Assembly: GCF_025742995.1 (NCBI RefSeq)
Contig: NZ_JAOVQM010000002.1
Location: 310,001-374,000, forward strand
From: Paracholeplasma manati
GTDB taxonomy: Bacteria; Bacillota_I; Bacilli_A; Acholeplasmatales; UBA5453
DNA: 64,000 nt
Reading direction: 5' to 3'
The notes under the pieces are model-generated. The model did no database searches. It was given only the letters and a program-made list of their open reading frames with translations, and had not been told where the DNA came from. Below, piece by piece: positions 10,960 to 27,173 of the stretch (position 1 is its first letter; every line of letters begins with the position of its first letter). The position numbers were made by a program, and so were the translations under genes.

Positions 10960-11197
10960 AATCCTATTGAGTTATTTATACATTCGTATCAGCGCATTGT
11001 TATTTCTACTGTTAAAAGAGGAGTAATCGGTGCAGGATTTGAATTTTCATTTCATCCAATAAACAAAACAAGTGAACCTTTTAAACAAAATGAATGTTGG
11101 GTATTATGATAGTCCTAAAGTGAGTGTACCATTTAGTGCTGAGAAGATATTTATTATGACTCAGTATCCTTTACTAGAAAAAGGACTGCTTAATTAA
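10960..11197 (+). pseudogene. Decayed reading frame, possibly a toxin-tip remnant
   Basis: Frame 10960-11109 is open from a preceding TGA (NPIELFIHSYQRIVIS...GVIGAGFEFSFHPI) without a credible start. A second frame continues it at ATG 11090-11197 (MNVGYYDSPKVSVPF...). The protein-like texture of both and the frame switch near 11090 suggest one broken gene. The opening NP and beta-rich character recall toxin tips elsewhere in this stretch, but this is a weak inference. Confidence 0.35.
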
Positions 11198-11225
11198 AAT
11201 TTTAAAAGGAAATGAAGGAGAAAAA

Positions 11226-11690: not shown

Positions 11691-11780
11691 TTGTGGAATA
11701 ACAAGAGGATTTTGGAACGATTTTGAAGAGACATACTTAAATGGATGATGAGGTTTTTCGATTAAAGAAAAGGAGAAAGC

Positions 11781-12245
11781 ATGAGTCCAATTGATAGAAT
11801 CAAAAAAGAATATTACGCAACATTAGTCATAGATTTATTCGTTTTAATTGTATCATTCATGGCAATGGTATGGTCACTTATCGACGATTTTGAAGTACCA
11901 AATTATGACATTGAAGCAATGATACGTGTTTTCTTCCTTCCGTTCACATGTTTCTTTGTAATAGTTGTATTTACAAATTTTCTCGTAAAACTATTAAAAG
12001 ACTTTAAACAAATACGTTCAAATAATTATAAACAACTGGTTGGAAGAGTTGTTGGGTTTGCTAAAAACCAAACAGAAACAGGTGACCAGATTAATAATTT
12101 TCCAAAGATTTATATAAGAGAAACTAAAAAAACAATAGAACTCCATGTTAATGATCATGTTAATTTAAATCAAGAATATACTTTTTTGTATCTAGAACAC
12201 ACGAGAATCGGAGCTGTGAAGTGTGGAGAGATTGATGATAAGTAA
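11781..12245 (+). CDS. Membrane protein with C-terminal beta domain, relative in layout of 11226 gene
   Basis: 154 aa, the same length as the previous gene. Two hydrophobic helices (about 14-35 and 48-71) are followed by KQLVGRVVGFAKNQ...NQEYTFLYLEHTRIGAV. An SD (AAAGGAG) precedes ATG. The order, two helices then a small beta domain, and the equal size suggest a divergent duplicate of the 11226 protein, though identity is low. Function unknown; immunity-like role inferred from setting only. Confidence 0.55.
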   Translation: MSPIDRIKKEYYATLVIDLFVLIVSFMAMVWSLIDDFEVPNYDIEAMIRVFFLPFTCFFVIVVFTNFLVKLLKDFKQIRSNNYKQLVGRVVGFAKNQTETGDQINNFPKIYIRETKKTIELHVNDHVNLNQEYTFLYLEHTRIGAVKCGEIDDK

Positions 12246-12288
12246 TAATGAAATATGGAATTTGATAAATCCATAGAAAGAGGACCAT

Positions 12289-13124
12289 ATGGGAGCATGG
12301 GGTACAGGATTATATTCAGATGACGTCGCACAAGATGTTAAATTTTTATACAAAGAATTATTAATGGTAGGATTATCAAATGAAGAGCGACCAAAAAACT
12401 AATCAAGGATAGTCAATGGCTGATCAATGATATGTATGATGGCCCTGTGTTTTGGTTTGTTTTAGCGGATACACAATGGAAATTAGGTAGATTACTCCCT
12501 GAAGTTAAAGAAAAAGCAGTGAAATACATTCAAGACGGCGAACATCTAAAAATGTGGTCTGAAGAAAATCCTAAATTAGGATTAAAGAGAAAAGAAGTCT
12601 TGGATAAATTAATGAATCAACTGAACTCTCCAATGCCAGAAAAGAAGAAGATATCTCCTTACAAATACTACCGAAATGCTTGGAAGTTGGGCGATACATA
12701 TGCATACCAGTTAAATGGAGATTTCGCTAAAGAAAACGGTCTTGATGGTAGGTATATTATCATTCATAAAATCGGTGATCATGATTTTAATAAAGGAATG
12801 GATAAGGATGTTTTTCCAATTATTCATATGAAAATCACACCAGATAAGAATCTTCCGAAGAATGTCAATGAAATAGAAGCGTGTGAATATATCAGACTTA
12901 ATCGGAACAGTAACGATAAAAAGTTTGACTATACCTCTTATCTTTGGGAAACATCAAGTAGATTTTTTAACAAATTGATATATGTTGGTAATTATTCTAT
13001 TACACCACCTACTTATGAGTGTACAACGAGATATTATGGAATTCTATTTACCACTCTATCTAAAAAAAGAGAAGATATCCTTTTAAGGTATTACATTAGT
13101 AATAAGGATTATCAATTTAAGTAG
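12289..13124 (+). pseudogene. Frameshifted MGAWG-type (DUF4259-like) gene
   Basis: The start is MGAWGTGLYSDDVAQDVKFL (SD AGAGGA upstream), the N-terminal hallmark of DUF4259-like proteins. The frame stops at 12399 after NEERPKN. Dropping back one base at 12387-12388 restores NEE(A)TKKLIKDSQWLIND, joining the frame that runs MYDGPVFWFVLADTQW to 13124. One deleted base therefore splits a gene of about 278 codons. Such proteins often lie near polymorphic toxins. Sequencing error is the alternative to a real pseudogene. An internal ATG at 12432 could give a truncated product. Confidence 0.75.
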
Positions 13125-13537
13125 TTCTTTCTATTAAAAGTGCTACAGGCTGGTATGTTTGGTGGGTAATTGATAGTAAAGGTAATCAAGGTTTATTGAT
13201 TACGGCCGGTTCTGGAATAGGTTCTCCATCAGTAAGTGTCACATGGTCTCCATTTTTCTCGTGGAGAAAAACAATTTACGATCTGAGTGGATTAAGCATC
13301 GTAGCTGGTGGTTCAATTGATTTAGGGCTTAGTGGTGGTGTTGAACTCATGTTTGATAAAAACGGACCACTTGGAATAACATTAAATTTAGGTCTTGGAA
13401 TTTCAGGAGCTGAAGGGCACCTACATGGATGTGTTACAGCTTTAATACCAATTAGGAAAAACTATCGTGCGTCGCGTTCAGATATAAATAGAATAATAAA
13501 TTCAATTAGAAGTTTTATTCAGACAATTTATATTTAA
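13121..13537 (+). pseudogene. Promoterless toxin-tip fragment (RHS/polymorphic toxin-like C-terminus)
   Basis: An open frame from just after a TAA at 13118-13120 reads SATGWYVWWVIDSKGNQG..., then a glycine-rich part (VAGGSIDLGLSGGVELMFDK) and GLGISGAEGHLHG. It has no start or SD; the only in-frame candidate is a TTG at 13196 inside the conserved-looking part. This looks like the C-terminal tip of a larger secreted protein displaced by recombination. A membrane protein gene follows at once, the order expected for toxin tip then immunity. The link to RHS is by resemblance and context, not by a decisive motif. Confidence 0.5.
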
Positions 13538-13562
13538 ATTTCCTTATCAGGAGGACATTAAA

Positions 13563-13997
13563 ATGATTAGAATCAGTCAATATAGTGTAACAAATATACG
13601 AATGTTGTTTGTAATCATATTCTCCCCAATTATAGCAATCGCTAATTTTCTACCTAATGTACAAGAAGCGTGGAACTTTATAGTTTATCTGCAAATATTA
13701 GTATCAGGATGGGGTATATGGGTGTTAATTATTATTTTAAAAGGAAGTCGAAGAAAGATTATATTCACATCAAATAATATTCATATTACGGATTTATTTC
13801 ATGCTACAAAAGAATTTACTTGGACACAAATAAATGGAATCGAGTATAATTATCGATATATTATAAAAAGGTATAAAATAGCGTTTGATAAAAATTATGA
13901 CTTTCTCTTTGAAGCAAATGACAAAACTATTAAGAAAATTATTGAGATTTGTCCAGTTTTAGAAGTAAAAAATCAATTTAAAACGATGATAAGTTAG
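13563..13997 (+). CDS. Membrane protein with PH-like domain, candidate immunity protein
   Basis: 144 aa. Two helices (about 12-29 and 40-60) are followed by a domain RKIIFTSNNIHITDLF...EFTWTQINGIEYNYRY with the look of a bacterial PH-like domain. SD CAGGAGG precedes ATG 13563. It begins 25 bp after the toxin-tip fragment, the usual position of an immunity gene. No specific immunity family is recognised. Confidence 0.5.
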   Translation: MIRISQYSVTNIRMLFVIIFSPIIAIANFLPNVQEAWNFIVYLQILVSGWGIWVLIIILKGSRRKIIFTSNNIHITDLFHATKEFTWTQINGIEYNYRYIIKRYKIAFDKNYDFLFEANDKTIKKIIEICPVLEVKNQFKTMIS

Positions 13998-14109
13998 CAA
14001 TTATCGTCTTATTAACTAATTTTTTTCTCGGTAGGTGGAATTATTGCCATGATATGCTTAAAATCTGACTGGAAACTCGATGGTTGGATTACCATATAGG
14101 AGGCTTTAT

Positions 14110-14592
14110 ATGAGTAAAATCACAGTGTTAAGAAATAAATGCACTAATACAATAAACGATGAGATATTGTTATCTATTGATAATAAAAAAATTGATGATA
14201 TTAACGACATAACAATAGACAATGGATTACATAGATTTGAAATCTCACAATTCCATTTTTACAATAACAAGTTTTTCTTTTTTGCAGCCTTATTAACGTT
14301 GTTTGACTTACTAATAAATACAGTTGATGCAGGATATTTACCCAGAAGATGGGGAAAATATGCTAAGCTCGAATTTGAATTGAACGTTACTGATGATGTT
14401 ACGCTATCAATTGAAATGAAACGTGTAAGGAAAAACATCATATGTGATCAATATTTCTTTGAAACTAATAATTTATGTGGTTTCAATGTTGTAACCTATG
14501 AGGAAAGAAGTATTTTTACAGTATTAGGCGCTATTACATTTTGGGTCACGATTTGTACCTTGTTAACATTTATAGTACTGATATGTTTCTAA
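14110..14592 (+). CDS. Membrane protein, unidentified
   Basis: 160 aa from ATG 14110. The frame is open from 14080 but AGGAGG (14098-14103) lies inside it and is spaced six bases from 14110. A beta-rich N-terminal half (KITVLRNKCTNTINDEILLS) surrounds one hydrophobic segment (about 56-72), and a strong helix ends the protein (about 136-160). It precedes the RHS tip by 28 bp. Function unknown. Confidence 0.55.
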   Translation: MSKITVLRNKCTNTINDEILLSIDNKKIDDINDITIDNGLHRFEISQFHFYNNKFFFFAALLTLFDLLINTVDAGYLPRRWGKYAKLEFELNVTDDVTLSIEMKRVRKNIICDQYFFETNNLCGFNVVTYEERSIFTVLGAITFWVTICTLLTFIVLICF

Positions 14593-14620
14593 AATCAATA
14601 AGTAATATTTAAATAGTTGA

Positions 14621-15064
14621 TATTACAACCCCGAAATAAGCAGATTCATAAGTAGTGATGGTTATTTTTGTCAACAAGGCGATATTCTAACAACTAATAT
14701 GTATGCTTATAGGGTAAACAATCCAATCACTAATATTGATATGAGCGGTTTAGCACCTGCTAAAACTTACATAGGTGGTTCCGCATGGATACAAATAGCT
14801 AAAATGTGTTTTGGACAATATTCTTCTGTAGCTATGGTGCATTTGCTTCTTTGGGGTCTAAGTCTGATAAGAACTGGTGTGTTATCTACATTAGGAGCTG
14901 CTATCATTGCGATAGGTATAGCACTTTTAATTATTTCTGTTGTTTGGAATATACCACAGATTGCAGCAGCTATTTATTACACAATAAAGGATGGTGGATT
15001 TAAGTTGAAGACACATTATTGGATTGTCGTTTTGGTATACAGTGGAGGATTTGTATTAATATGA
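14621..15064 (+). pseudogene. Orphan RHS-core C-terminal tip with membrane-seeking toxin-like domain
   Basis: Directly after a TGA the frame reads YYNPEISRFISSDGY...TNMYAYRVNNPITNIDMSG, the conserved end of the RHS-repeat core (normally R-YYDP-x-x-GRF...NNP-x-x-x-x-D-x-x-G). The rest of the RHS gene and any start are missing; ATG at 14699 is a core methionine. After the core come about 100 residues with three hydrophobic helices (WIQIAKMCFG...; STLGAAIIAIGIALLIISVV; HYWIVVLVYSGGFVLI), possibly a pore-forming or membrane toxin, or a normal linker. The stop overlaps the next ATG (ATGA). Silent unless recombined onto a full RHS gene. Confidence 0.8.
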
Positions 15065-15354
15065 CTAAAGAAAAGAGAAATCAGGGAATTCTAATTATAA
15101 TGGCATTGTCATTTTCGGTGTTTGGTTATATTATTACTGATAAAATGGGAATGGGCTGGAGTAATGCTCCATTTCTGTTTACAATCCTTATGATTAGTTC
15201 AGCGTTAATTATTGTTTCTTCTAATCCTATATATAAATACTTATGTGAAATAAGCTATAAAAAAAGAACAATCATAATTGCAATCATCGTGTTCATAATA
15301 AGCATAATCTCAATAGTCTTACATGTTGTTTTCTTTATCCAATATGCGAGTTAA
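15061..15354 (+). CDS. Three-helix membrane protein, candidate immunity to the RHS tip
   Basis: 97 aa from ATG 15061, which overlaps the stop of the RHS tip as ATGA. GGAGG at 15044-15048 is 12 bases upstream. Three hydrophobic helices (about 9-25, 33-50, 66-92). By known organisation of polymorphic toxins the gene next to the toxin tip is its immunity gene, and a membrane immunity partner would suit a membrane-acting toxin. No immunity family is recognised. It ends 5 bp before the IS3-family end. Confidence 0.6.
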   Translation: MTKEKRNQGILIIMALSFSVFGYIITDKMGMGWSNAPFLFTILMISSALIIVSSNPIYKYLCEISYKKRTIIIAIIVFIISIISIVLHVVFFIQYAS

Positions 15355-15496: not shown

Positions 15497-15544
15497 TATA
15501 TAAAATGTCAATTAAAATAATAATTATAAACCTAAAAAAACATT

Positions 15545-15570
15545 AAAACGGCTTAGTTAAGCCGTTTCAT
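15545..15570 (-). terminator. Displaced original ssrA-type terminator next to att copy A
   Basis: AAACGGCTTA, GT, TAAGCCGTTT with T on the minus strand after it. It lies just beyond the CCA end of the degenerate tmRNA 3' fragment at 15577, the position a tmRNA terminator would have, so it may be the terminator that belonged to ssrA before integration. Confidence 0.65.
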
Positions 15571-15576
15571 TCGTCT

Positions 15577-15600
15577 TGGTGGAGATGAGGGAGTTGAACC
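15577..15600 (-). repeat. att copy A: displaced, decayed tmRNA 3' end
   Basis: Minus strand reads GGTTCAACTCCCTCATCTCC followed by ACCA, matching the last 24 bases of ssrA (23131-23154) except for one missing G and one C/T change. It is the outermost of three copies of this sequence (15577, 16803, 23131) in the same orientation, as left by successive site-specific integrations. Confidence 0.75.
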
Positions 15601-15749
15601 ACCAAATAAGTATAGCTTTCTTTTCTTTTTTATAGATTGTATAATTATAAAATGAAACCATGTCGTTATACAAATGAAAAATAAGATATGAAATTAGATA
15701 TAAGCCTATGATATAATTATTATAAGTATAATATTTAGGGGTGGATTTC

Positions 15750-16661
15750 ATGAAGAATAAATTTGTGTACTTAATTGGATTATTCATTTGTTTTTTTGTG
15801 ATTTTATATAGTGCAATTTTTGCTTCTAGTGGATTTGATATAACATCTTTTACCACCTATAACTTAATAGATTATCCAATAATTTATATCATTTCATTTA
15901 ATCTACTGATTATATACCCTCTGTACTATCATAAAAATAATTTTTTTGAAGTGGTTTTTTCCACTGTGCTTTTATTCAATTTAATAATTAATTATACTTT
16001 GATTGCATCTTTTAGTCATATTGGTATTGGTGACTATTTTTTTCCTATTTTAATGAATTCACAAAATATTATTACTGCCTTAACATTTAATATAATCATT
16101 GCATTATTCATAGCCGTCATACTCCTAATTATGAAATTCAAAGATAGAAAATACTATTTGATTGTCCATGTTTTATTTTTAATCATATTGAGTATTATTC
16201 ACCTTTTATGGTTTTTAGGAGTTAAATACGAGAGTATTAACACACCAAATTTATTTGAACCTAGACCATTTGACTTCATTTATCAATTGCTTATTTTATT
16301 AAAGGGAGGTTATCTTTTCATTTCTTCAGTTGTTATTCTATATGTATTTTTTAATAGTATAATAAGTAAAATGCAAAAAATAGTAAACATAGACCTTACA
16401 AAACTATCTAAAATTCTTGTTTGGTTTTTCTTTGGTTTTTTTGGAATTGAAAGATTATTTGAAAAAACTAATAAGTGGATCTTTCATTTCCAAATACTAT
16501 CTGCAGCACTCATGATTGGATATTATTTTACAATGAATACTATGTATTTTAATATAAGATTAAATATGTTATTTTTTGTAGTTTTTATTGTTTCAGGGAT
16601 TTTAAAAATTCTAGTTTCTGTATATAGTTTGGTAAGTATATTAAAAAATAAAAAATTTTAG
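15750..16661 (+). CDS. Polytopic membrane protein with C-terminal TM2-like region
   Basis: 303 aa from ATG 15750; a GTG at 15741 lies inside the SD AGGGGTG and is rejected. About eight hydrophobic helices. Near residue 220, KILVWFFFGFFGIERLFE recalls the TM2 domain (glycine-rich hairpin of membrane proteins). It is the only gene between att copies A and B, has its own terminator at 16660 and is very AT-rich. Function unknown; as sole cargo of a decayed ssrA element it could be a defence or exclusion membrane protein, which is speculative. Confidence 0.65.
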   Translation: MKNKFVYLIGLFICFFVILYSAIFASSGFDITSFTTYNLIDYPIIYIISFNLLIIYPLYYHKNNFFEVVFSTVLLFNLIINYTLIASFSHIGIGDYFFPILMNSQNIITALTFNIIIALFIAVILLIMKFKDRKYYLIVHVLFLIILSIIHLLWFLGVKYESINTPNLFEPRPFDFIYQLLILLKGGYLFISSVVILYVFFNSIISKMQKIVNIDLTKLSKILVWFFFGFFGIERLFEKTNKWIFHFQILSAALMIGYYFTMNTMYFNIRLNMLFFVVFIVSGILKILVSVYSLVSILKNKKF

Positions 16662-16700
16662 ACTTATTGTTCTATCATTCGTCAAACAATAAGTCTTTTT
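16660..16700 (+). terminator. Terminator of the 15750 membrane gene
   Basis: AGACTTATTGTT / AACAATAAGTCT, a 12-bp perfect stem followed by TTTTTATTT. It begins within the TAG stop codon. Confidence 0.85.
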
Positions 16701-16719
16701 ATTTGTATTTTAACAGATC

Positions 16720-16743
16720 AAAAATAAAAGACCCTAATGGGGC
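16720..16743 (-). terminator. Minus-strand terminator beyond att copy B
   Basis: On the minus strand GGCCC, CATTA, GGGTC (one G-U) followed by TTTTATTTTT. It lies about 60 bp past the CCA-like end of att copy B, so it may be the terminator brought by the outer element to close ssrA transcription. Confidence 0.5.
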
Positions 16744-16802
16744 CTAGTATTTAATACATATCACCTGATAAGATAATCAGTTAATATGAATGTTGTGCCT
16801 GT

Positions 16803-16821
16803 TGGTGGAGATGAGGGGAGT
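16803..16821 (-). repeat. att copy B: 19-bp ssrA 3'-end core
   Basis: TGGTGGAGATGAGGGGAGT is identical to the ssrA 3' end at 23131-23149 and then diverges (TATTAAT instead of CGAACCC). It marks the left boundary of the 6.3-kb inner island. Confidence 0.8.
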
Positions 16822-16856
16822 TATTAATAATAAATATACATTTTTCTAGTGTAATT

Positions 16857-16880
16857 AAAACGGCTTATGTAAGCCGTTTT
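16857..16880. terminator. Terminator after the island repressor gene
   Basis: AAAACGGCTTA / TAAGCCGTTTT, an 11-bp stem with T-rich tails on both strands. It closes the minus-strand repressor transcript. The stem is nearly identical to that at 15545, suggesting common origin. Confidence 0.75.
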
Positions 16881-16932
16881 ATATTTTTATTGTTTAAAAT
16901 GCATAGTTTAGTAGACATATGAAATAAGAGTA

Positions 16933-16952
16933 TTTAAGGGCGTTTTAAGGGT
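16933..16952 (+). repeat. Paired AAGGGC repeat, candidate integrase arm site (left)
   Basis: TTTAAGGGC at 16933-16941 and TTTAAGGGT at 16944-16952, 11 bp apart, about 110 bp inside att copy B. The same paired motif occurs at 20273-20290 (inverted) and 23066-23084. Confidence 0.5.
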
Positions 16953-16959
16953 GAGTTTT

Positions 16960-17631
16960 TCAATCTAAAACAATTATCTCATAATTTGAATCTAGATAGT
17001 GATTTATTGTTTCATAGTGCATAACTATGGAAACTTTACCAATTACTACAGTATTGTCATCAATCAATCTATTCAGTGTAACGAATGTAATGTTATCAGG
17101 ATCATCATCATCTTTAGCAAATTTAAGAACTTGATTGTCAATGTTGATAATTCTTATATAAGGTTCTGATTTATACATTACAAGACAAATATCATTATTT
17201 TTGATTTTTGCAGTGGTATCGACAAATACAATATCATTTCTTGTTATCTTTTTGTTTAACATTGTGTCATCTTTGACTTGAAAAACGATGTAAGGATTGA
17301 AATCCTTTCTAACATTAATAGATGGATACTGATCTCTTATATACCCATTTGATATTGATTTGTATACATGAACTACCTGATTAATATCATTGAAGTGAAT
17401 CATGTCACCAATTTGGAAATTATCCAAAATATAAACATCAGTTCCTAATATATAATCCGCAGATACTCCGTAAAAATTGGCAAGATTGGTTAAGTTTGTT
17501 TGATTAAGTCCGAATATCCCAGACTCTATTTTTGACAACGTTCCAATATCTATTAATGTTTCAAGGCTTACATCATGTAATGTGAGCATATTCTCTTTCC
17601 TAAGCAATTTTAGCTTTTCACCAGGGGTCAT
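16960..17631 (-). CDS. XRE-family repressor with degenerate S24 (LexA/CI-like) domain
   Basis: 223 aa. N-terminal XRE helix-turn-helix (GEKLKLLRKENMLTLHDVSLE through GVSADYILG, residues 4-63) and a C-terminal S24-like fold (VKDDTMLNKKITRNDIVFVD; EPYIRIINIDNQVLKF). In active LexA/CI proteins the catalytic pair is Ser in G-D-S-M and Lys in v-K-r. Here these positions read D-T-M and Y-I-R, so autocleavage is doubtful. Its place, divergent from an HTH gene with shared upstream motifs, is that of a prophage-type master repressor. SOS-independent control is inferred. Confidence 0.8.
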   Translation of the reverse strand: MTPGEKLKLLRKENMLTLHDVSLETLIDIGTLSKIESGIFGLNQTNLTNLANFYGVSADYILGTDVYILDNFQIGDMIHFNDINQVVHVYKSISNGYIRDQYPSINVRKDFNPYIVFQVKDDTMLNKKITRNDIVFVDTTAKIKNNDICLVMYKSEPYIRIINIDNQVLKFAKDDDDPDNITFVTLNRLIDDNTVVIGKVSIVMHYETINHYLDSNYEIIVLD

Positions 17632-17646
17632 AATATCACCAACTTA

Positions 17647-17788
17647 AGTATACTAAAAATTTGTAGTTATTACAATAATTCTAATAAAATTTAGGTGAAA
17701 TCACAATATATTTGTAAAAAATCCAAAAATGTTGTTGAATTGTTTTTTTCTATGTAGTAAAATATATGTGAATATTTGGAGTAATTAC
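17647..17788. promoter_or_regulatory. Repressor/HTH divergent control region with candidate operators
   Basis: Plus-strand promoter: TTGAAT (17735-17740), 17 bp, TAAAAT (17758-17763). Candidate operators are the palindrome AGTATACT (17647-17654) near the repressor start, GTAGTTATTAC (17663-17673) and the palindrome GTAATTAC (17781-17788) just before the HTH gene's SD. The last two share a TTATTAC/TAATTAC core, which could be the repressor's half-site. Confidence 0.55.
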
Positions 17789-17809
17789 AAAAAAAAGGAG
17801 GATACCCAA

Positions 17810-18040
17810 ATGAAAAAAAGAAGTACAGGTTTAAATTTGGATTACATTAGAGGATGTTTAGCACAAAGTAGAATTAGTCAGAAACAATTAGCTAAGTTTT
17901 TGAACAAATCAGAAAATTCTATTAATGCAGCATTAAATGGCAAAACACTATTCAGTAGTATTGAGATTAAAATGATGTCTGAACTGTTTGGTGTGAGTGT
18001 TGAATCGTTATTTGTTGATAATAAGGAAGGTTCAAAATGA
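17810..18040 (+). CDS. Small HTH (XRE-like) regulator of the island
   Basis: 76 aa from ATG 17810, eight bases after a perfect AGGAGG (17796-17801); the open frame from 17729 is rejected as it spans the promoter. The segment ISQKQLAKFLNKSENSINAALNGK is a helix-turn-helix and LFGVSVESLF ends it as in XRE proteins. By position it resembles a Cro/excisionase-type regulator transcribed away from the repressor. Its stop overlaps the next start (ATGA). Confidence 0.75.
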   Translation: MKKRSTGLNLDYIRGCLAQSRISQKQLAKFLNKSENSINAALNGKTLFSSIEIKMMSELFGVSVESLFVDNKEGSK

Positions 18041-18315
18041 TTATTACAATTGATGATAGTTTCACAATTGAAATTGATGGAATTGGTAATCATACACTAA
18101 TTGAATCTTTGCCAGTTCAAAGGGTTGATCGTAAGAATGATACGAGAAAAATTTATCATGGATACTACTCTAACATTGCAAATGCCTTAAAAAAATATGC
18201 AATGATTAAAGTATTGAGTGATTCAGAAAAAAGCACGATTGATAGATATATATCTTCATTCAATGAAATATTAAATTCTGCAATGAAAAAAATTCTAGCG
18301 GAAGTGAAGAAATGA
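18037..18315 (+). CDS. Hypothetical island protein
   Basis: 92 aa, soluble, beginning MIITIDDSFTIEIDGIGNHTL and ending in an amphipathic helix. It overlaps the HTH gene by 4 bp, so the two are co-translated. No family recognised. The order repressor, HTH, small acidic protein, replication-like protein is common in Gram-positive integrative elements. Confidence 0.6.
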   Translation: MIITIDDSFTIEIDGIGNHTLIESLPVQRVDRKNDTRKIYHGYYSNIANALKKYAMIKVLSDSEKSTIDRYISSFNEILNSAMKKILAEVKK

Positions 18316-18382
18316 TTATCTTTTTATTTCATGACTTGTATGAATAGTATTCGTAAAAACAAAATGAAAGGAGGTTCATTAT

Positions 18383-19042
18383 GTGGTTAAGACTGGGTAT
18401 ATTAAAATCTATCCGAAAGTTGTCGAAGAGACAAACTTATCTGGTAATGCATTGCTAATATTCTCGATAATTAGAGAGTTTACGCTGCATAGTAATGAAA
18501 AGCAATTCAACAATACATATTCATATTTTACTAATTGGTTGAATATTACCAGGCAACAAGTAGATAAGATATTGAATCAATTAATCAGTGAAAAGTTAGT
18601 TTCAAAGCAACGCAATGGAGTAAAGAGTATTCTATGCGCACTTGCAAGATCAGATGCATATATAGAACGTTCATTTCAATACAGACATCTTGCATCAAAC
18701 CTTGATTTAGAACAGCTTAACGAAGATAAATATATTTGGGTAGAACCATATATGGTAAATGAATTTAATCTTTCCTCACACGAATTAATTTTATTTGCTT
18801 TAATATCTGGTTATTCTAGAAGTAATGAATATGCTTTTCAATCAAGTGATAACTATTATAGATCGTGGTTAACTGTACACACAAAAACCTATTATAAGAC
18901 ATTAAGGAGTCTTTTAAACAAGAAACTAATATATTATGGTAGTTCATCAAAAGATGATAATCGAAGAGTATATGTATCTTGTAAACACTTAGATTACTTT
19001 GTTAGTGAAAGAGCATTCAAAGAGTTGCCATTCTCAAAATAG
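18383..19042 (+). CDS. Duplicated winged-helix protein, replication-initiator-like
   Basis: 219 aa from GTG 18383 with AAAGGAGG eight bases upstream. An ATG two bases earlier (18381) is out of frame and soon stops. Two copies of one domain are visible: residues 4-95 (YIKIYPKVVEETNLSGNALL... QQVDKILNQLISEKLVSK) and 112-205 (YIWVEPYMVNEFNLSSHELI... KTYYKTLRSLLNKKLIYY). Each resembles the winged-helix domains of phage and plasmid replication proteins from Firmicutes. The iterons immediately downstream support a replication-initiation or partition role, by inference. Confidence 0.65.
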   Translation: MVKTGYIKIYPKVVEETNLSGNALLIFSIIREFTLHSNEKQFNNTYSYFTNWLNITRQQVDKILNQLISEKLVSKQRNGVKSILCALARSDAYIERSFQYRHLASNLDLEQLNEDKYIWVEPYMVNEFNLSSHELILFALISGYSRSNEYAFQSSDNYYRSWLTVHTKTYYKTLRSLLNKKLIYYGSSSKDDNRRVYVSCKHLDYFVSERAFKELPFSK

Positions 19043-19072
19043 ATATGTAAAATAATTTCCAATATTTGGAAT

Positions 19073-19245
19073 AAAGTTTACATATTAGACCATCAGTAAA
19101 TAGGCTCCCCATAGGCCCTCCTATGCCCCATGGATAGGGTATAGATAGGGTATAGATAGGGTATCATATGAAAAAAGGTTACATGACAATGGAAAAATGT
19201 TTACATAAAATGTTACTTTTGTATAAGAAAAATGGAAATAAGTTT
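19073..19245 (+). repeat. Iteron-like repeats and hairpin, candidate origin of the island
   Basis: Three tandem 11-bp copies of GATAGGGTATA (19133-19165, last base differs), preceded by a CATAGG/CCTATG hairpin (19110-19125) in a locally GC-rich patch, and surrounded by four dispersed (G)TTTACA/GTTACA elements (about 19077, 19177, 19199, 19234). The region 19043-19383 holds no gene. Direct repeats next to a Rep-like gene are the usual form of a theta-type origin. Confidence 0.55.
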
Positions 19246-19383
19246 ACACACTATATCTTTATAGCCTTTTAGAATCTTTGTTAGTACATCTTTTTATATT
19301 ATGTGCTGGATAAATCCATCACCGTGTAAAAAAAGGATTTATAATTATTTAAATCTAAAAATCAAAACATAAAGAGGTAAATC

Positions 19384-19605
19384 GTGGTTAATAAAACAGG
19401 ATACATCATATATCGAGTAAAATACGATCAATCATTATCCGTATTTGGATTTTGTGACAATCTTTTAAAAGTTAAAGAATGGGTTAGATTTTTAAAAAGA
19501 AGACATCATTCAAATTTCATATATTCGATATCGGATAAAAAAAGTTTCGTAAATGCAGAAAAATATCAACATACAAGGAGAAATAAAAATGCAAGCTGCA
19601 ATTAA
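19384..19605 (+). CDS. Small hypothetical island protein
   Basis: 73 aa from GTG 19384 with AGAGGT upstream. It starts MVNKTGYIIYRVKYDQ and has a basic middle (FLKRRHHSNF). No family recognised. The N-terminal GYI motif echoes the start of the winged-helix protein (VKTGYIKIY), which may be chance. It overlaps the next gene by 17 bp. Confidence 0.5.
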   Translation: MVNKTGYIIYRVKYDQSLSVFGFCDNLLKVKEWVRFLKRRHHSNFIYSISDKKSFVNAEKYQHTRRNKNASCN

Positions 19606-20008
19606 TGTTTTAAATAACAACATCGAAGTAATCACATTATCAAAAAGAGACGTGTATCTAATGAATAATAAATATGAGTGGTCAGAAGAAAATCGTCCTT
19701 TGCACACTTTCAAAATTAATTTAGATTTACTTGCATATCGTGAAATGCACTATTTTAAAAATGACTCTGTAGTATTTGATTCAAGTATAACAGCTGAGAG
19801 TTTAAAAGCTGGAGATCATGTAGTATTGATTAACAAAAAAACTGGTTTTGTGAGTTTAAGAGAAGTTCGCATGGTAGCAGGTAGATTACAGTATTCATTT
19901 AGTGATTACTATGATCAGTTCTTAAGCGATAATACAATATCTATGAAAACAAAAAGATACGATTTGCTCGGTAAAATTGTTTATAGAATTTGGTCCGTGT
20001 CCAAATAG
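19589..20008 (+). CDS. Hypothetical island protein
   Basis: 139 aa from ATG 19589, eight bases after AAGGAG; the frame opens earlier at 19553 but lacks an SD. A beta-rich soluble protein with KAGDHVVLINKKTGFVSLREV, which reads like a small barrel domain. Unidentified. It sits between the iterons and the integrase and may belong to the replication/excision module. Confidence 0.55.
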   Translation: MQAAINVLNNNIEVITLSKRDVYLMNNKYEWSEENRPLHTFKINLDLLAYREMHYFKNDSVVFDSSITAESLKAGDHVVLINKKTGFVSLREVRMVAGRLQYSFSDYYDQFLSDNTISMKTKRYDLLGKIVYRIWSVSK

Positions 20009-20103
20009 TATGTATTGAAAGTAATCAACAATCAGCTTTTGTTAGTTTAATCAACTATGATTATTTGATAATCGAAGAAAGAATAAAAATCTTATAGAGT
20101 TAG

Positions 20104-20290
20104 TGTACACACAATATGATTTATCATATTTGTGTTCACACTTCACACTATCTTACACGGCGGTTATATCATGCATTAATACATGTTGAAAATTAATGAT
20201 AGTTCAAATAATCTCCGCCATTTTTCTTATATTGGCTTTGCTATCGTGTTTTAATTGAATCAATAATTATTTGCCCTTAAAAATGCCCTC
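20104..20290. repeat. Dyad-rich region before the integrase with third AAGGGC pair
   Basis: AATATGAT TT ATCATATT (20113-20130) lies inside a longer imperfect GTGT...ACAC dyad (20104-20142). GGCGG (20159-20163) and CCGCC (20215-20219) can close a long loop. GCCCTT (20273-20278) and GCCCTC (20285-20290) are the inverted form of the paired AAGGGC motif found at both island ends. No gene is present in 20009-20315. Confidence 0.45.
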
Positions 20291-20315
20291 ATAAACATAG
20301 AAACGAGGTGATTTC

Positions 20316-21410
20316 ATGGCAGTTTGTAAACGTGGTGATAAGTATTCATATCGAGTTTATGTATATGATCATGAACGTGGTAAAAATAGACAGATTGAGA
20401 AACGTGGATTTACAACACGAAAAGCAGCGAGACAAGCAGAAGTAGAATTCTTATCAAAGTATGAATTAACAAATAGTTTAAAAAAACATGAACTTAGTTT
20501 TAAAACGGTTTATGATTTCTATTTGTATCAAAAGAAAAAAGAATGGAAAGCAACCACATATTATGGTATTAAAAAGATATTGGATAAATGGCTACTTGAA
20601 CCATTTAAAAATTTAGACTTCACAAAGATTACTAAATCGCACATTAACAAGTGGAGAAATGAATTAGACAATCATGGTTTTTCATCCAGGTATAAGAATA
20701 AGTTATTAACTAATCTCAAATCGATGTTTTCATTGGCCATGGATGAGTTTGATATTCAACATAATGTAGTCAAAAGTGAGCCATCTTTTAGAGATGATAA
20801 ATTAAGCGTAGAATCTGGTATATATACTGAAGATGAATTTAAGATGTTTCAAAGTGTAATTAATGATAACCAATATAAGTTATTGTTTACGATGCTATTC
20901 TATACTGGTTTAAGAATTGGTGAAATCAGAGCATTAAAATGGAATGACATCGATACGGATAAAGGATCAATAGTAATCAATAAACAAATTAGCAATAAAA
21001 CCTTTGATAGAAAACCAATACTAGTACAACCAAAAACTAAAAGTTCAAATCGTGAAGTATTCTATCCAAAGAAAGAGATTAATCCACTACTAGAGTTGAA
21101 TGTATCGGTTTTGAGCGACTTTTATGGAAATAATAAATCCTTATTCGTCTTCGGTTATAAAAAGCCTCTATCGGAAACAACCATTAGAAGAAAGAACGAA
21201 CATTATTCAAAGGCTGCATGTTTACATACTATTCGGATTCATGACTTTAGACATTCATATATAACCATGCTGTTTTATAAAAATGTCGATCCATTAACAA
21301 CAAAAGATCAAGTCGGTCATTCATCAGTTAAAACGACTTTAGATATTTACACTAAGCTAGAAAAAGATACAAGAAAAAATAGAATCAATTCAGCTTTTGA
21401 TGATGAATAA
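20316..21410 (+). CDS. Tyrosine recombinase / integrase of the ssrA island
   Basis: 364 aa. An N-terminal arm-binding domain (AP2-like, YSYRVYVYDHERGKN, about 1-50), a SAM-like core-binding domain (about 60-165) and a catalytic domain. Catalytic residues are visible: Arg in TGLRIGEIR near 201, H-x-x-R in HDFRHSY near 309-312, His in VGHSS near 335 and Tyr in DIYTKL near 345. This is the Tn916/phage-type layout. It is expected to recombine the 19-bp ssrA core. SD GAGGTGA precedes the ATG. All catalytic residues are intact. Confidence 0.93.
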   Translation: MAVCKRGDKYSYRVYVYDHERGKNRQIEKRGFTTRKAARQAEVEFLSKYELTNSLKKHELSFKTVYDFYLYQKKKEWKATTYYGIKKILDKWLLEPFKNLDFTKITKSHINKWRNELDNHGFSSRYKNKLLTNLKSMFSLAMDEFDIQHNVVKSEPSFRDDKLSVESGIYTEDEFKMFQSVINDNQYKLLFTMLFYTGLRIGEIRALKWNDIDTDKGSIVINKQISNKTFDRKPILVQPKTKSSNREVFYPKKEINPLLELNVSVLSDFYGNNKSLFVFGYKKPLSETTIRRKNEHYSKAACLHTIRIHDFRHSYITMLFYKNVDPLTTKDQVGHSSVKTTLDIYTKLEKDTRKNRINSAFDDE

Positions 21411-21414
21411 AGAT

Positions 21415-21438
21415 AGAGTGTAAAAGCACTCTTTTTTA
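21415..21438 (+). terminator. Integrase terminator
   Basis: AGAGTG, loop TAAAAG, CACTCT then TTTTTTATTT, directly after the integrase stop. Confidence 0.8.
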
Positions 21439-21839
21439 TTTCTTAGATTCTAAATGTGATATCGAGTAGTATCAATAAATGACAATTATTTATGTTTTTT
21501 TGTGAAAAACTGTCTTTGTCAATAAATGATTATATATAATCATTATTTATACACAAAAAAATTTTTTCGGAAATATTTATCCATTAGAAAAGACATCAGA
21601 ATTTCTATCATAAATACATAAGAACGATGTTATGGATTATAAATTAATGTGATGTTGTGCATCTAATCCATTATTATTGAACATACGAGAATAATTTAAA
21701 CCAATAAAACGATAATTTAACTAATCTATCATGATTCAAACCCTATGTAATTGGATTGTGAACAATTTGTGATGCATCCTTATTATTTTATAATAAGTAT
21801 TGCTATTCATTCGTGTATTCAAAATATGAAATTTGAGCA
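21439..21839. other. AT-rich intergenic region between integrase and AbiH gene
   Basis: About 400 bp with no gene. It has a perfect 20-bp palindrome at 21525-21544 (AATGATTATA and its complement) and a direct repeat TCAATAAATGA at 21472-21482 and 21519-21529, the second leading into the palindrome. No other signal is seen. Confidence 0.5.
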
Positions 21840-21864
21840 ATAAAAAAACAACCTTGATGGTTGT
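21840..21864 (-). terminator. Terminator of the AbiH-like gene
   Basis: Minus strand: ACAACC, short loop, GGTTGT then TTTTTTTATT, immediately after the TAG stop. Confidence 0.85.
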
Positions 21865-23037
21865 CTATTTTGTAATAAATTGAAGTGTATCAATGTCAGG
21901 CAAAAAAATTATATTGATTCGATTTTGATTAATCATGCGGTGAAGTAAATTCTTCCCTTGATATTTATTATTCAAAGTCTTTCCATAACTCTCTATAAGT
22001 TTTGTTATAGCTTTCACTTGATCCATTTCTATATCATTTTTTTCTTTACCCTCATAAAATGAATAATAAAAAGTTAATGCGATAGAACTGTTATATAAAT
22101 CAAACTTATCGAAAATAGTTTGAAAGTAAGAATAATCCTGTTCATTTAAAGAATGCCCAAAAAACATTATGTGGCTATACTTATTTTCCATAATGTCAAA
22201 TTGATTTTTTTTAGAAGGCAACAGAAGTTGTTCTACCTTTTTGTATGTTTTACTAAATAAGTAACCGTGCTGATTATAATCAAATTTAGAACTATCAATA
22301 CCAATTATTATCCTATTATGACTTAATTTGCCATGAACATAAGTTGTAACTGAATCATATGGTGATGGAGCATCAGTATAGTTAAATGATAAGACTCTAA
22401 AATTACTATGGATATCCAATCCTTGGCCAATAGTGGAAAAAAAGAAATCATATAATTTAATAGAATTATTCTTATATAATTCATTGTTCTCAGATTGAGC
22501 ATATAAATATTCTTTAAAGTTGTCTTCAAACCTATGTACCTCTTTGTTGAGGAACCTCACCCATGAATCAGGACTTTCTGTTTTTTCTTGATCCAATAAT
22601 GAGTAATAAATCATAGTCATCAGTATGAATTTATCTTTATCTAAAGCCGTTGTTAAAATGTCTTTATTGTTGATTAAGTGATCGTAACTATAAATTTCAC
22701 GATTAAGTATTATTCTAAGATTTTCCCAGTAAGAATTAACTAATAGTCCATTAGAGTCTGATTTTTGATAAACAAGATGAAAGATGTACATTTCGACATC
22801 TGACCATAACGGATCTTTATCATAATAAGCATTCATTAATAGAATGTCAATTATATTCATACTGGACAAATTTTTTTTATTTGCAACAATAAAACCTCTA
22901 ATACTTGAAGCTGATATTCTGCCGGTTAAAAATCCAAAATCAATTTTGTTAGTAATTGAACTTTCAAAGTAATCTTTAAAACTTGAATTGAGTTTGCATT
23001 TTTTATCAAATCCATTGCCAATAATTAAGAGTTTCAT
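21865..23037 (-). CDS. AbiH-family abortive infection protein
   Basis: 390 aa. The N-terminus MKLLIIGNGFDKKCKLNSSF is the hallmark of the AbiH family (GNGFD, Rossmann-like nucleotide-binding start, then D-x-x-x-x-L-x-x-S-F/Y). A second family-type motif, MFFGHSLNEQDYSYF, appears near residue 296, and VLSFNYTD and VHGKLS fit in between. AbiH proteins stop phage growth by an unknown mechanism; some resemble SIR2-type NAD-binding folds. It has its own SD (AAGGAGAA), runs opposite to the integrase, and ends the island beside the att site, the classic place for defence cargo. Confidence 0.8.
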   Translation of the reverse strand: MKLLIIGNGFDKKCKLNSSFKDYFESSITNKIDFGFLTGRISASSIRGFIVANKKNLSSMNIIDILLMNAYYDKDPLWSDVEMYIFHLVYQKSDSNGLLVNSYWENLRIILNREIYSYDHLINNKDILTTALDKDKFILMTMIYYSLLDQEKTESPDSWVRFLNKEVHRFEDNFKEYLYAQSENNELYKNNSIKLYDFFFSTIGQGLDIHSNFRVLSFNYTDAPSPYDSVTTYVHGKLSHNRIIIGIDSSKFDYNQHGYLFSKTYKKVEQLLLPSKKNQFDIMENKYSHIMFFGHSLNEQDYSYFQTIFDKFDLYNSSIALTFYYSFYEGKEKNDIEMDQVKAITKLIESYGKTLNNKYQGKNLLHRMINQNRINIIFLPDIDTLQFITK

Positions 23038-23064
23038 TACACGTTCTCCTTACGATTTCTAGAA

Positions 23065-23084
23065 TAAGGGCAGATTTAAAGGGC
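23065..23084 (+). repeat. Paired AAGGGC repeat, candidate integrase arm site (right)
   Basis: TAAGGGC at 23065-23071 and TTTAAAGGGC at 23075-23084, about 50 bp inside att copy C and within the AbiH upstream region. It mirrors the pair at 16933-16952. Confidence 0.5.
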
Positions 23085-23099
23085 AATACATTTATATAC

Positions 23100-23122
23100 A
23101 CAAAATGGCTCTATAGAGCCAT
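23100..23122 (-). terminator. ssrA terminator (brought by the island)
   Basis: Minus strand ATGGCTC, TATA, GAGCCAT then TTTTG, eight bases past the CCA end of ssrA. It differs from the terminators next to att copies A and B, as expected if each element carries its own. Confidence 0.8.
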
Positions 23123-23130
23123 GAAATTAC

Positions 23131-23149
23131 TGGTGGAGATGAGGGGAGT
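23131..23149 (-). repeat. att copy C: ssrA 3' end core
   Basis: The same 19 bases as copy B, here as part of the intact tmRNA acceptor/T-arm region. Confidence 0.8.
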
Positions 23150-23478
23150 CGAACCCCTGTGCATGATTTTTCCTGTGATACTTTCTACATGTTTAGTCAA
23201 TCAGTTGTTTTCATCTAGCAATCATAGATTGACATATTATCACTAGACTAACCTTATTGATTCATTGAATTGCTTAAGGTGGCAACAATACAATATATCT
23301 TACTGTTTTGTGCCTTAGACTAAGTCGTAAGAAAACCTAGCGTTGGCTCGCACTTTTTCTTAAGCAGCGAATTGTAAATTTTGGTTTCCGGTTATTAATA
23401 ACCTCGGTGTTTTTACTTGCACAACCAAGACATGCTTATATCACATTTAAAACCCTGACGAATCCAGAGAACATCCCC
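23131..23478 (-). ncRNA. ssrA: Transfer-messenger RNA (tmRNA)
   Basis: 348 nt. The 5' end reads GGGGATGTTCTCTGGATTCG and the 3' end GGGGTTCGACTCCCCTCATC plus TCCACCA, giving the tRNA-like acceptor and T-arm. The tag frame follows ATAACC: GGA AAC CAA AAT TTA CAA TTC GCT GCT TAA (23389-23360), i.e. tag (A)GNQNLQFAA. tmRNA with SmpB rescues stalled ribosomes and tags the product for proteolysis. It has its own promoter. The gene is kept intact although its 3' end is the integration site. Confidence 0.95.
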
Positions 23479-23488
23479 ATGCGCAATC

Positions 23489-23517
23489 ATTATATAAGAA
23501 TTGGTTAAGTAAATCAA
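23489..23517 (-). promoter_or_regulatory. ssrA promoter
   Basis: Minus strand TTGATT (23517-23512), 17-bp spacer, TATAAT (23494-23489). Start at 23478 lies 10 bases downstream. Confidence 0.8.
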
Positions 23518-23532
23518 GAATAAATAACCAAT

Positions 23533-24246
23533 CTATTTAGATTGTCTAAGTCTAGCTACCCTAGAATACTTTGGGTTATCACCATAGCGAACCAAATAAT
23601 CACTCGCACTTTGGATATTACAACTGTTTCTCGCAACCAAAGGCATTACATAGCCTATATGGGATGCGACCAGGGTGGCTAACGTCACTAAAGAAGGCAC
23701 ATGTAAACCTGCCGATACCACAGCATTATTCATCGCGTTTTGGATGGATAAGGGTTTATTTTGAATGGTGTCACGTATTCTATCTAGCCATGCTTTTGAG
23801 TAAACAGTATCGATCAACTCCAGTGGTTGTGATCTGAAATAACTCGAAAGTAATGCGAAAAAGGCATATTCAAGGTGTTCATTAGTAGCAATCGAGAGCG
23901 TTTTGAGTATTGAGTCGGCATCGTTTAAATCCAAAAAGAAGTTTGCAATCCCTTGATCGACGATGTTACTTGAGTTTGCTTTTAAGCACCAATCAACCAC
24001 TCTGGTGGAATCCAATGTGTTTGGATCAACAATCATGGTTGCTAATAACATGGTTTCATAGTAATTCAATTCGAACAACGCATCAGCCAATGCGTTGTTT
24101 TTTGGTAGTTTCGATGCGTATTGTCTCAAGTCACCCATTTTCACGCCGATGTATTGAAAAGGTTTAGGCTGTTTAGAAAGTCTTTTATATGTGCCTTCAT
24201 CTATCAAGGTTAATAAGTCATTATATATTCGATTTAGTTCGGTCAA
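23533..24246 (-). CDS. AlkD-like DNA alkylation repair protein
   Basis: 237 aa from TTG 24246, with AGGAGT (24258-24253) six bases upstream. The open frame reaches 24558 but that part overlaps the divergent pot promoter and looks non-coding. The protein is all-helical with repeats of HEAT type; YIGVKMGDLRQYASKL and the following YETMLLATMIVD match the AlkD/DNA alkylation repair family, which removes bulky alkylated bases. Catalytic Asp/Trp positions could not be checked by alignment. Confidence 0.65.
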   Translation of the reverse strand: MTELNRIYNDLLTLIDEGTYKRLSKQPKPFQYIGVKMGDLRQYASKLPKNNALADALFELNYYETMLLATMIVDPNTLDSTRVVDWCLKANSSNIVDQGIANFFLDLNDADSILKTLSIATNEHLEYAFFALLSSYFRSQPLELIDTVYSKAWLDRIRDTIQNKPLSIQNAMNNAVVSAGLHVPSLVTLATLVASHIGYVMPLVARNSCNIQSASDYLVRYGDNPKYSRVARLRQSK

Positions 24247-24348
24247 AGTATCACTCCTAACTAACCACATCATATCATAAAAACAATCGAAATCATTCAG
24301 GGAAGGATTGGATTTGTAAGGGGATCTATATAATTTTTTGTTTTTGGG

Positions 24349-24376
24349 TTGACAATGAAACACATTACTATATAAT
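24349..24376 (+). promoter_or_regulatory. Consensus promoter of the pot operon
   Basis: TTGACA (24349-24354), 16-bp spacer, TATAAT (24371-24376): both boxes are perfect sigma-A consensus. The leader to the potA start is about 125 nt and shows no riboswitch I recognise. Confidence 0.8.
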
Positions 24377-24507
24377 AGTATTGACTTAGGTTTATTATTG
24401 CTTAACCCGAAGTTTATATATACTAAACATTGGCGGAATGACTGACCTATCGGTTTATGGTTATTCTTGTTAATGAAAAACGGATAACGTCTTATTGGGG
24501 GTATTGT

Positions 24508-25566
24508 ATGAAAAAATTGATTGAATTGAAAGGTATCACCAAGGCGTTTGGTGGTCAAGTGGTACTAAAGGGCATCGATTTGGACATCTATGAAAACGAA
24601 TTTGTTACCCTCTTAGGTCCATCGGGTTGTGGAAAAACAACCACACTTCGCATCATTGGTGGGTTTGAAAAACCATCCTCCGGTGAAGTGCTATTTAATG
24701 GCGAATCTGTGGCGGATTTGCCGCCACATAAAAGACCAACCAATACGGTCTTTCAACGCTATGCATTGTTTCCCCATTTAGATGTGTATGAAAATGTTGC
24801 TTTTGGATTGAGATTGAAAAAAGAATATCAAAAGATGCCAGCTAAAGCGCGTGAAGCTTTGATCGAACAAAAGGTGTCTAAATACCTTCAAATGGTTGGT
24901 TTGGTTGGCTATGAAAACCGAAGTGTCCATAAGATGTCTGGGGGTCAACAACAAAGGGTCGCGATTGCGAGGGCTTTGATCAATGAACCTCAAGTATTGT
25001 TACTGGATGAACCACTCGCTGCACTCGATTTAAAACTCCGCCAGGAGATGCAATATGAGCTTAAAGAAATCCAACGCAATGCGGGTATTACTTTTATATT
25101 TGTTACCCATGACCAAGAAGAAGCGCTAACTATGAGCGACAAAATCGTGGTCATGAATGAGGGTGAAATCCTTCAAGTAGGCACACCAGAAGATATCTAC
25201 AATGAACCTAGTAGCCGATTTGTCGCGGGTTTCATTGGCGAATCGAACATCATCGAAGGCATCATGAAAGACGACTATTTGGTTCACTTTGATGGTAAAG
25301 ATTATGTTTGTGTTGACTATGGATTCAAAAAGAATGAAGTGGTCGACATTGTCTTAAGACCAGAGGATTTAGATATTGTCGAACCAGGCCAAGGTTTCAT
25401 TGAAGGCATTGTAGATTCCATCATTTTCAAAGGTGTTCATTATGAGATTGATGTGAAAACACCAGAACGTATTTACACGATTCATACCATCAAGTACCAC
25501 GCGGAAGGGTCACAGGTATCCATCGTATTCGACAAAGAAGATGTCCACGTGATGGAAAAATGGTAA
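24508..25566 (+). CDS. potA: Spermidine/putrescine ABC transporter ATP-binding protein PotA
   Basis: 352 aa from ATG 24508 (SD GGGGGT); the frame opens at 24457 but has no SD there. ABC ATPase: Walker [11 protein letters not shown], signature MSGGQQQR, Walker [12 protein letters not shown] and switch His in [11 protein letters not shown]-terminal TOBE-like regulatory domain ([13 protein letters not shown]) is present, as in PotA. It energises polyamine import with PotB/PotC. The next gene overlaps its last codons. First gene of potABCD. Confidence 0.93.
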
Positions 25567-26390
25567 GCATGAAAAAGGCGATACCACTGAAGAATAAACT
25601 CAGTTTAAGGGATTTAAACCTGATGGGGAGCCCTTATTATGTGGTTTTATTCTTCCTCATCCTCATTCCGCTCATATTGATATTGTTTTACGCGTTTTCA
25701 GAACGCGTTAATGACTTATTTATTTCCTTTTCATTTAACTATTTTAGACAGTTTTTAAACGAACCTGCCTTCATTAAAACAATGTTAGATTCCATTAAAC
25801 TCGCGATTTATACCACATTGGTCACGTTATTTATTGGGTATCCAACCGCATATTTGATTACCAAATCGAATAAGAAAACACAAACATTACTGATTCTCAT
25901 GATTACCGCACCGATGTGGGTCAATATGTTGTTAAGGACCCTCGCTTGGAAGCAAATCTTTGAAATGCTAAATGCATCCTTGTTAGGTACAGATATCGCT
26001 ATCATTACTGGGATGGTGTATGTATTTTTACCATTCATGGTATTACCGATTTATACCGTTTTGTCCAAGATTGATCCAAAACTCTATGAAGCAGCCGATG
26101 ATTTGGGTGCGAATAAGTTTCAAACATTTTTAAAAGTTACCTTACCATTATCGATTACAGGTGTCTTATCAGGCATCACGATGGTATTACTCCCAGCAGC
26201 AACCACGCTAGTCATCCCTAAATATTTGGGTAAAAACCGATATTTGATAGGCAATCTCATCGAAGACCGTTTCCTCACTGCAGGTAACTGGGGTTATGGT
26301 TCAGCCATCGCCATCATCCTATCTTTGGTCATCATGGCGATGGTCATCTTCACCAAGAAACTCGATCGAAATAAGGGGGCTAAAGAATGA
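25560..26390 (+). CDS. potB: Spermidine/putrescine ABC transporter permease PotB
   Basis: 276 aa (273 if ATG 25569 is used; both overlap or abut the potA stop and neither has a strong SD). Six membrane helices. The inner-loop EAA motif is visible as [20 protein letters not shown], which contacts the PotA ATPase. It forms the channel with PotC. Overlaps potC by 4 bp (ATGA). Confidence 0.92.
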
Positions 26391-27172
26391 AATCCCTTAA
26401 AAACTGGATATCCAAATCTTATATTGGGATCATCCTCGCGTTTTGTTACGCACCAATTTTTTCACTAATCATTTTCTCTTTTAATGAGAATAAGAGTTTG
26501 ACCAATTGGGGTGGATTTTCACTCAAATGGTATGAAAAATTATTTGATTCGACCGATATCATGACAGCGGTCATTATGACCATTGTCATCGCGGTCCTCG
26601 CAACATTGATTTCAGTATTCATCGGAACCCTCGCAGCGATTTCACTGTCGAAATCGAAAAAGGTATTTAAAGATGTGATGCTTGGGGTCAATAACGTGCC
26701 TATCGTTAACCCAGAGATTGTCACTGCCGTGGGATTATTGTTACTATTTGTTTCATTCCAGATTGACCGTGGTTACACGACCATGTTGCTAGCCCATGTG
26801 GCGTTTTGTACCCCATATGTCGTGATTACGGTGTATCCAAAGGTTAAAAGTTTGGATCCTAATCTCGCGGAAGCAGCGAACGATTTGGGGGCAACCCCAG
26901 TTCAAGCTTTATGGTTGGTCGTGTTCCCACAAATCAAGGTCGCGATTTTCGCTGCAGCAGCCATCGCATTCACCATGAGTTTTGATGATTTCGTCATCTC
27001 GTACTTTACCGCTGGGTCGGCTACCAACATCAGCATCTACTTATATACATTAAGACGTGGGGTTGAACCCACCATCAATGCGTTATCTACCATCATCATC
27101 GTCATCATTGGCGTGGTGGTGACTTATCGATATTTGAAATCGAACCAAAACAACGAACAGGAGATTGAATAA
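26387..27172 (+). CDS. potC: Spermidine/putrescine ABC transporter permease PotC
   Basis: 261 aa, six helices, EAA motif EAANDLGATPVQALWLVVFP. FTMSFDDFVISYFTAG is typical of PotC. Start overlaps the potB stop. Second membrane subunit of the polyamine importer. Confidence 0.92.
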   Translation: MKSLKNWISKSYIGIILAFCYAPIFSLIIFSFNENKSLTNWGGFSLKWYEKLFDSTDIMTAVIMTIVIAVLATLISVFIGTLAAISLSKSKKVFKDVMLGVNNVPIVNPEIVTAVGLLLLFVSFQIDRGYTTMLLAHVAFCTPYVVITVYPKVKSLDPNLAEAANDLGATPVQALWLVVFPQIKVAIFAAAAIAFTMSFDDFVISYFTAGSATNISIYLYTLRRGVEPTINALSTIIIVIIGVVVTYRYLKSNQNNEQEIE

Positions 27173-27173
27173 C

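Follow-up and report, generated by a model that had tools for sequence, protein, structure and literature searches.

We analysed a window of 64 kb from Paracholeplasma manati (assembly GCF_025742995.1, NZ_JAOVQM010000002.1 positions 310,001-374,000, forward strand), and the whole assembly (1.87 Mb) was scanned for repeat copies. The window carries an intact ssrA gene, encoding tmRNA, with an Rfam RF00023 score of 143.5 bits compared with 141-150 in its family relatives. On the 3' side of this gene lie two further copies of its 3' end, A and B; the gene end itself is copy C. Two intervals are bounded in this way, an outer segment (A-B) and an inner element (B-C). The features of the site are listed below in window positions; G159 is a genome of the same species and G004 that of a congener.

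15544-15569, minus strand: ancestral tmRNA terminator hairpin, remaining on the chromosome (adjoins ssrA at the empty site in both G159 and G004)
15577-15600, plus strand: copy A, the displaced original ssrA 3' end, at the junction of chromosome and outer segment (alignment to the G159 empty site)
15601-16801, unstranded: outer segment A-B, 1.2 kb, 23% GC, without an integrase (absent at ssrA in G159 and G004)
15750-16661, plus strand: membrane-protein gene, 303 aa, preceded by AGGGGTGG (hydropathy)
16729-16745, minus strand: weak terminator-like hairpin, possibly from the outer element (fold)
16802-16821, plus strand: copy B, exact ssrA 3' end TTGGTGGAGATGAGGGGAGT, the composite att site between outer and inner parts (20-bp match)
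16822-23130, unstranded: inner integrative element B-C, 6.3 kb (flanked by the exact 19-bp repeats B and C, with a paired motif near both ends)
16856-16881, strand not given: second AACGGCTT..AAGCCGTT hairpin, at the left end of the inner element (genome search)
23105-23122, minus strand: hairpin that is now the tmRNA terminator, supplied by the inner element (fold; not in the empty sites)
23131-23478, minus strand: ssrA, intact, its 3' end being copy C (ARAGORN; Rfam RF00023)

The 15-mer TGGTGGAGATGAGGG occurs exactly at 15577, 16803 and 23131, each time on the plus strand, where the chance mean is 0.04 per 64 kb, and no further copy was found elsewhere in the 1.87-Mb assembly. The three copies in one orientation that had been described earlier from the sequence are thus present and unique in the genome, and copy B, given then as exact over 19 bp, matches the ssrA end over 20 bp. 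Copies B and C are identical to each other over 19 bp. The attachment site would be the part of ssrA that runs from the T-loop to the CCA end.

One hundred and sixty genomes of the order were pattern-searched for the ssrA end, and the same-species genome G159 was found to have one copy. From ssrA rightwards, its contig L089 and the window share 97% identity, and the sequences corresponding to window positions 15531-15600 and 23131-33592 are adjacent there at one ssrA 3' end. When window positions 15501-15576 were joined to 23131 onwards and compared with G159, we observed 243 identities, 3 mismatches and no gap. The AACGGCTTAGCTAAGCCGTT hairpin lies about 10 bp from the CCA end of ssrA in G159, and the congener G004 also has an empty site, where ssrA runs directly into a terminator of the 15545 type. 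From the empty sites in these two genomes, we concluded that the DNA between 15.60 and 23.13 kb is inserted, that copy A is the displaced original end and that the 15545 hairpin is the ancestral terminator; the ancestral locus is ssrA followed by this terminator. This is the order for which the preliminary description had proposed to check relatives without the island, and the conditions that it named as refuting did not arise. The genes of 15.6-23.1 kb are not fixed, as no other genome of the genus examined has the ORF of the outer segment and the replication-like gene of B-C has no match in any other of 41 genomes. The locus therefore has the make-up of an ssrA island: an intact tmRNA, 3' of which lies a displaced fragment of its 3' end in matching orientation, an integrase within the interval (in B-C; A-B alone has none) and close relatives with an empty site (G159 and G004).

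G004 carries a displaced ssrA 3' end with its terminator (L095, G004:C3:17000-34000, positions 7714-7760), on the same contig as ssrA and 139 kb apart; its neighbours are an ORF of 2067 aa and a gene paralogous to the one that flanks ssrA. In the window, the left flank of the island (9461-15354) holds many small orphan ORFs and varies among relatives; the ORF at 14699-15064 ends Rhs-core-like.

Copy A departs from the empty site. Its alignment to G159 runs from the ancestral terminator through GGAGTtGAACC (T-loop), with one 1-bp gap and one substitution within the ssrA part. These differences bear out the earlier view of copy A as altered, but its reading as decay is one of two: they may reflect age or, equally, an attP that was already imperfect when it arrived with the outer element.

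Next, we compared the hairpins by folding them against shuffled sequences. The ancestral terminator (15569-15544) has a free energy of −14.5 kcal/mol (z −5.1) and the present one (23122-23105) of −9.9 kcal/mol (z −3.0); in the alignment, the latter does not occur at the empty ssrA site of relatives. The hairpin on the outer side of copy B (16745-16729) has −10.5 kcal/mol with a z of only −1.7, as 12 of 200 shuffles fold equally well, and it lies nearly 60 bp from copy B instead of about 8 bp. Hence, of the earlier proposal that a hairpin stands beyond each ssrA copy, the existence of all three holds, but that of copy B is weak and distant. The ssrA terminator would have switched from the 15545 hairpin to the 23105 hairpin through the insertions, and the hairpin to the left of copy B, weak as it is, would have been the interim terminator between them. 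Another hairpin, at 16856-16881, is near-identical to the ancestral ssrA terminator, and these two are the only such hairpins in the genome; it was ruled out as a displaced ssrA terminator, since it stands on the wrong side of copy B.

The genes and sites inside the inner element are as follows.

16936-16952, plus strand: arm-type-like paired site AAGGGC(N5)AAGGGT, left end (motif search)
16960-17631, minus strand: CI-like repressor, HTH and S24 peptidase (PF12844, PF00717; phrog_4)
17810-18040, plus strand: Cro-like HTH regulator (PF01381; phrog_4583)
18037-18315, plus strand: small phage-type protein, no function assigned (phrog_14203; weak match to phrog_154)
18383-19042, plus strand: replication-initiation or DnaD-like winged-helix protein, DnaD/O-like (phrog_678, 186, 270, 19658)
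19043-19383, unstranded: non-coding stretch in which GTTTACATA and GGGTATAGATA units recur (sequence, repeat listing)
19589-20008, plus strand: ORF, no function assigned (Pfam/PHROG profile searches)
20273-20290, minus strand: paired site of the AAGGGC type, the third one, lying upstream of int (motif search)
20316-21410, plus strand: tyrosine integrase (PF00589, PF14657, PF14659; phrog_1, 1.2e-65)
21865-23037, minus strand: AbiH-family cargo, phage abortive infection (PF14253)
23066-23084, plus strand: arm-type-like paired site AAGGGC(N7)AAGGGC, right end (motif search)

The integrase has all three Pfam domains (Arm-DNA-bind_4, SAM-like and catalytic), and by inspection the R (TGLRIGE), HxxR (HDFRHS), H (GHSS) and Y (DIYTKL) motifs are present, in agreement with the intact integrase noted before. 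The AbiH match scores 63.5 bits over a curated cut-off of 30.9, and the PADLOC models gave no match for this gene. The repeat-bearing stretch that follows the replication-like gene is a possible replication origin. We recognised no structural, packaging, relaxase or conjugation genes among the Pfam/PHROG matches of the B-C ORFs, and as a relaxase or conjugation gene is lacking, B-C is not a demonstrated ICE or IME. From its gene content (CI/Cro control, an initiator-like gene, an integrase and the AbiH cargo), it looks like a small temperate or satellite-type element. It shares with the PICI-like satellites this control, an initiator-like gene, an integrase, its small size and the position of a defence gene between int and att, and, as in PICIs, an integrase, a repressor and a replication gene occur together with no structural genes. 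The usual PICI layout is int-first, from which the gene order of B-C differs, and no helper-interference or packaging genes were recognised in it.

A search with the pattern [AG]AGGG[CT]N4-8A[AG]GGG[CT] found the paired motif three times in the 64 kb (0.08 expected under a first-order Markov model), every one within B-C: one 114 bp inward of copy B, one 46 bp inward of copy C and one beside int. The restriction of the motif to B-C, near both of its ends, indicates that B-C is one unit from which A-B is excluded. Integrases whose N-terminal part has domains of this type bind such arm sites, and we therefore infer from position that the paired sites, which were recognised post hoc, may serve as arm sites. 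The same distribution argues against a single element A-C in which copy B would be an ssrA end present by accident, as the motif flanks B-C, not A-C; moreover, a match of 19-20 bp, exact and in the right orientation, is not expected by chance, and we consider this explanation extremely unlikely.

The outer segment contains one gene and no integrase, as first described. Its single ORF is predicted from hydropathy to have about seven to nine hydrophobic helices, and it gave no match in Pfam, PHROG, PADLOC or NCBIfam, nor in plasmid or viral contig collections. An AlphaFold model made without an alignment is all-helical, with a pLDDT of 53 that is too poor for a fold search. The sole relative of this ORF in the 160 genomes (31–32% identity) is in G108, where it directly adjoins a radical-SAM gene (L154, G108:C46, 2143-4401); this hints at a possible role near a modified-peptide system. 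A-B has att-like sites at both ends (copies A and B) and no integration or transfer genes, and no ICE/IME remnant genes were seen within its 1.2 kb. Since it holds a single membrane-protein gene and lacks an integrase, the segment is similar to a cis-mobilizable remnant (CIME).

Taken together, the region of 15.6–23.1 kb (7.5 kb, A to C) very probably arose by tandem accretion of two elements at one ssrA site. There is good support for two accretion events having taken place, while the order of these events, or their joint arrival, is only weakly constrained. The small A-B would have been inserted at the ssrA 3' end first, displacing the original end and the 15545 terminator outward and supplying a new end. 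Next, the tyrosine integrase of the complete B-C would have inserted this element at the regenerated end; copy B would remain as a composite att site, and the present ssrA end and terminator would come from B-C. The tmRNA would have stayed intact throughout, since each element would carry the last ~20 bp of the gene. At present, recombination of B x C could release B-C by itself and that of A x C could release A-C together, and A-B would be cis-mobilizable at best.

The two successive insertions of the preliminary description accord with the empty sites and the three copies; the older-outward order given there is the likeliest, but topology alone is insufficient for it. We favour outer first and inner second as copy B is exact and copy A altered. 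We found no genome with A-B alone or B-C alone, so that the insertions were not seen separately. If B-C had come first and A-B had entered its distal att site later, an identical A-B-C arrangement would result; core B should then be at least as old as A, yet B is the exact copy and A the altered one, by two small changes only, and this reversed order appears decidedly improbable. Alternatively, the composite A-C might have been accreted in an earlier host and have come here as one unit by a single insertion. The same topology is expected from such an arrival, G159 is without both parts together, and CIME-ICE tandems have been seen to transfer jointly (review PMC5704250). On the other hand, it needs recombination with the diverged A-type site, the well-matched pair being B and C; the sequence itself speaks neither for nor against it, and we regard it as unlikely, though to be taken seriously. 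Accretion of the two elements at this site, outer before inner, is hence our preferred reading.

We found no tyrosine integrase in the sequence 3' of some 50 further ssrA genes of the order, which reached to about 15 kb or stopped earlier at a contig end; ssrA is thus no common hotspot for integrases in this order. Relatives of the integrase comprised one distant match (26%) in genome contigs and none in viral contigs, and identities to phage records were at most ~33%. The nearest relative in the genus (35%, G001) lies at tRNA-Thr, not at ssrA (L084, G001:C113, 13061-14309), and a similar hairpin is found in G001 between int and the tRNA-Thr.

Displaced ssrA ends were observed in other genomes as well. 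G116 (L090, G116:C1:885000-903000) has ssrA-end copies at 7230, 9638 and 10750, a second, independent tandem without an integrase, among whose cargo are an APH-like kinase and an ORF resembling a PBECR4 nuclease. In G056 (L110, 13290-14632), a displaced end with one mismatch stands 1.3 kb from ssrA, with no integrase between. A 92-bp left end, 90% identical, lies beside displaced ssrA ends in G116 (L090, 9635-9726) and G023 (L112, 10558-10648, reverse strand); the cargo next to it is the APH-like kinase in one and a GNAT-like ORF (assigned by eye) in the other. Among 395 genomes of the class, a sample to which G116 does not belong, only G023 matched this end. A right-end motif common to G116 and G056 was dropped as evidence, since it also flanks the ssrA of G057, which has no displaced copy, and may be a native ssrA flank.

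These loci bear on whether A-B could be a non-autonomous cassette that never had an integrase and was moved in trans by ssrA-specific integrases. Integrase-less ssrA segments of comparable kind occur in G116 (2.4 and 1.1 kb), G056 (1.3 kb) and G023 (4.0 kb), and G116 and G023, of different genera, have the 92-bp end in common with different cargo. However, A-B lacks the ends of those segments, and no helper integrase was found near the ssrA genes of G116, G056 and G023, which makes this origin of A-B improbable. The wider proposal, that the ssrA 3' end in this order captures minimal integrase-less cassettes (1–4 kb) whose short ends are conserved and which ssrA-specific integrases move in trans, A-B being one with its own kind of ends, seems more doubtful still. 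The end shared by G116 and G023 gives a lead, short of a demonstration, that non-autonomous ssrA cassettes may form a family.

Tandem ssrA islands, some without integration genes, are already known. In Dehalococcoides, tandem islands lie downstream of ssrA, each bounded by ~20-bp direct repeats of the ssrA 3' end, and 15 of these islands are without the integration module and were read as possible cis-mobilizable elements (PMC3146451). The arrangement of multiple repeat-bounded islands, some without integration genes, is the same here, whereas the enzymes and cargo differ: a CcrB-like serine recombinase (DsiB) and reductive dehalogenases there, a phage-type tyrosine integrase and AbiH in the window. 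In CIME-IME/ICE accretion (Pavlovic 2004; reviewed in PMC5704250), an att-bearing element without integration genes also lies beside a complete one at the end of the same gene, with a composite att site between them, and arises by a three-step route (PMC5704250); the complete element here differs in having no relaxase or conjugation gene. The Islander resource lists 125 tandem tDNA islands, with tmRNA as the most enriched target (PMC4383910), and its islands, like this one, are integrase-bearing and bounded by an intact tmRNA and a displaced 3' fragment. As it rejects candidates that lack an integrase or are below 2 kb (PMC4383910), A-B would escape it as a separate unit. In view of these precedents, the locus is a well-supported further example of a known pattern.

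The locus offers a clean case, with an empty site in the same species, of stacked insertions that exchange the terminator of a ribosome-rescue RNA gene at every step but leave the gene itself intact. The range of tandem accretion at ssrA now includes an Acholeplasma-like lineage, and the locus illustrates that an integrase-less unit of one gene can adjoin a complete, defence-carrying element, by which it could be carried along.
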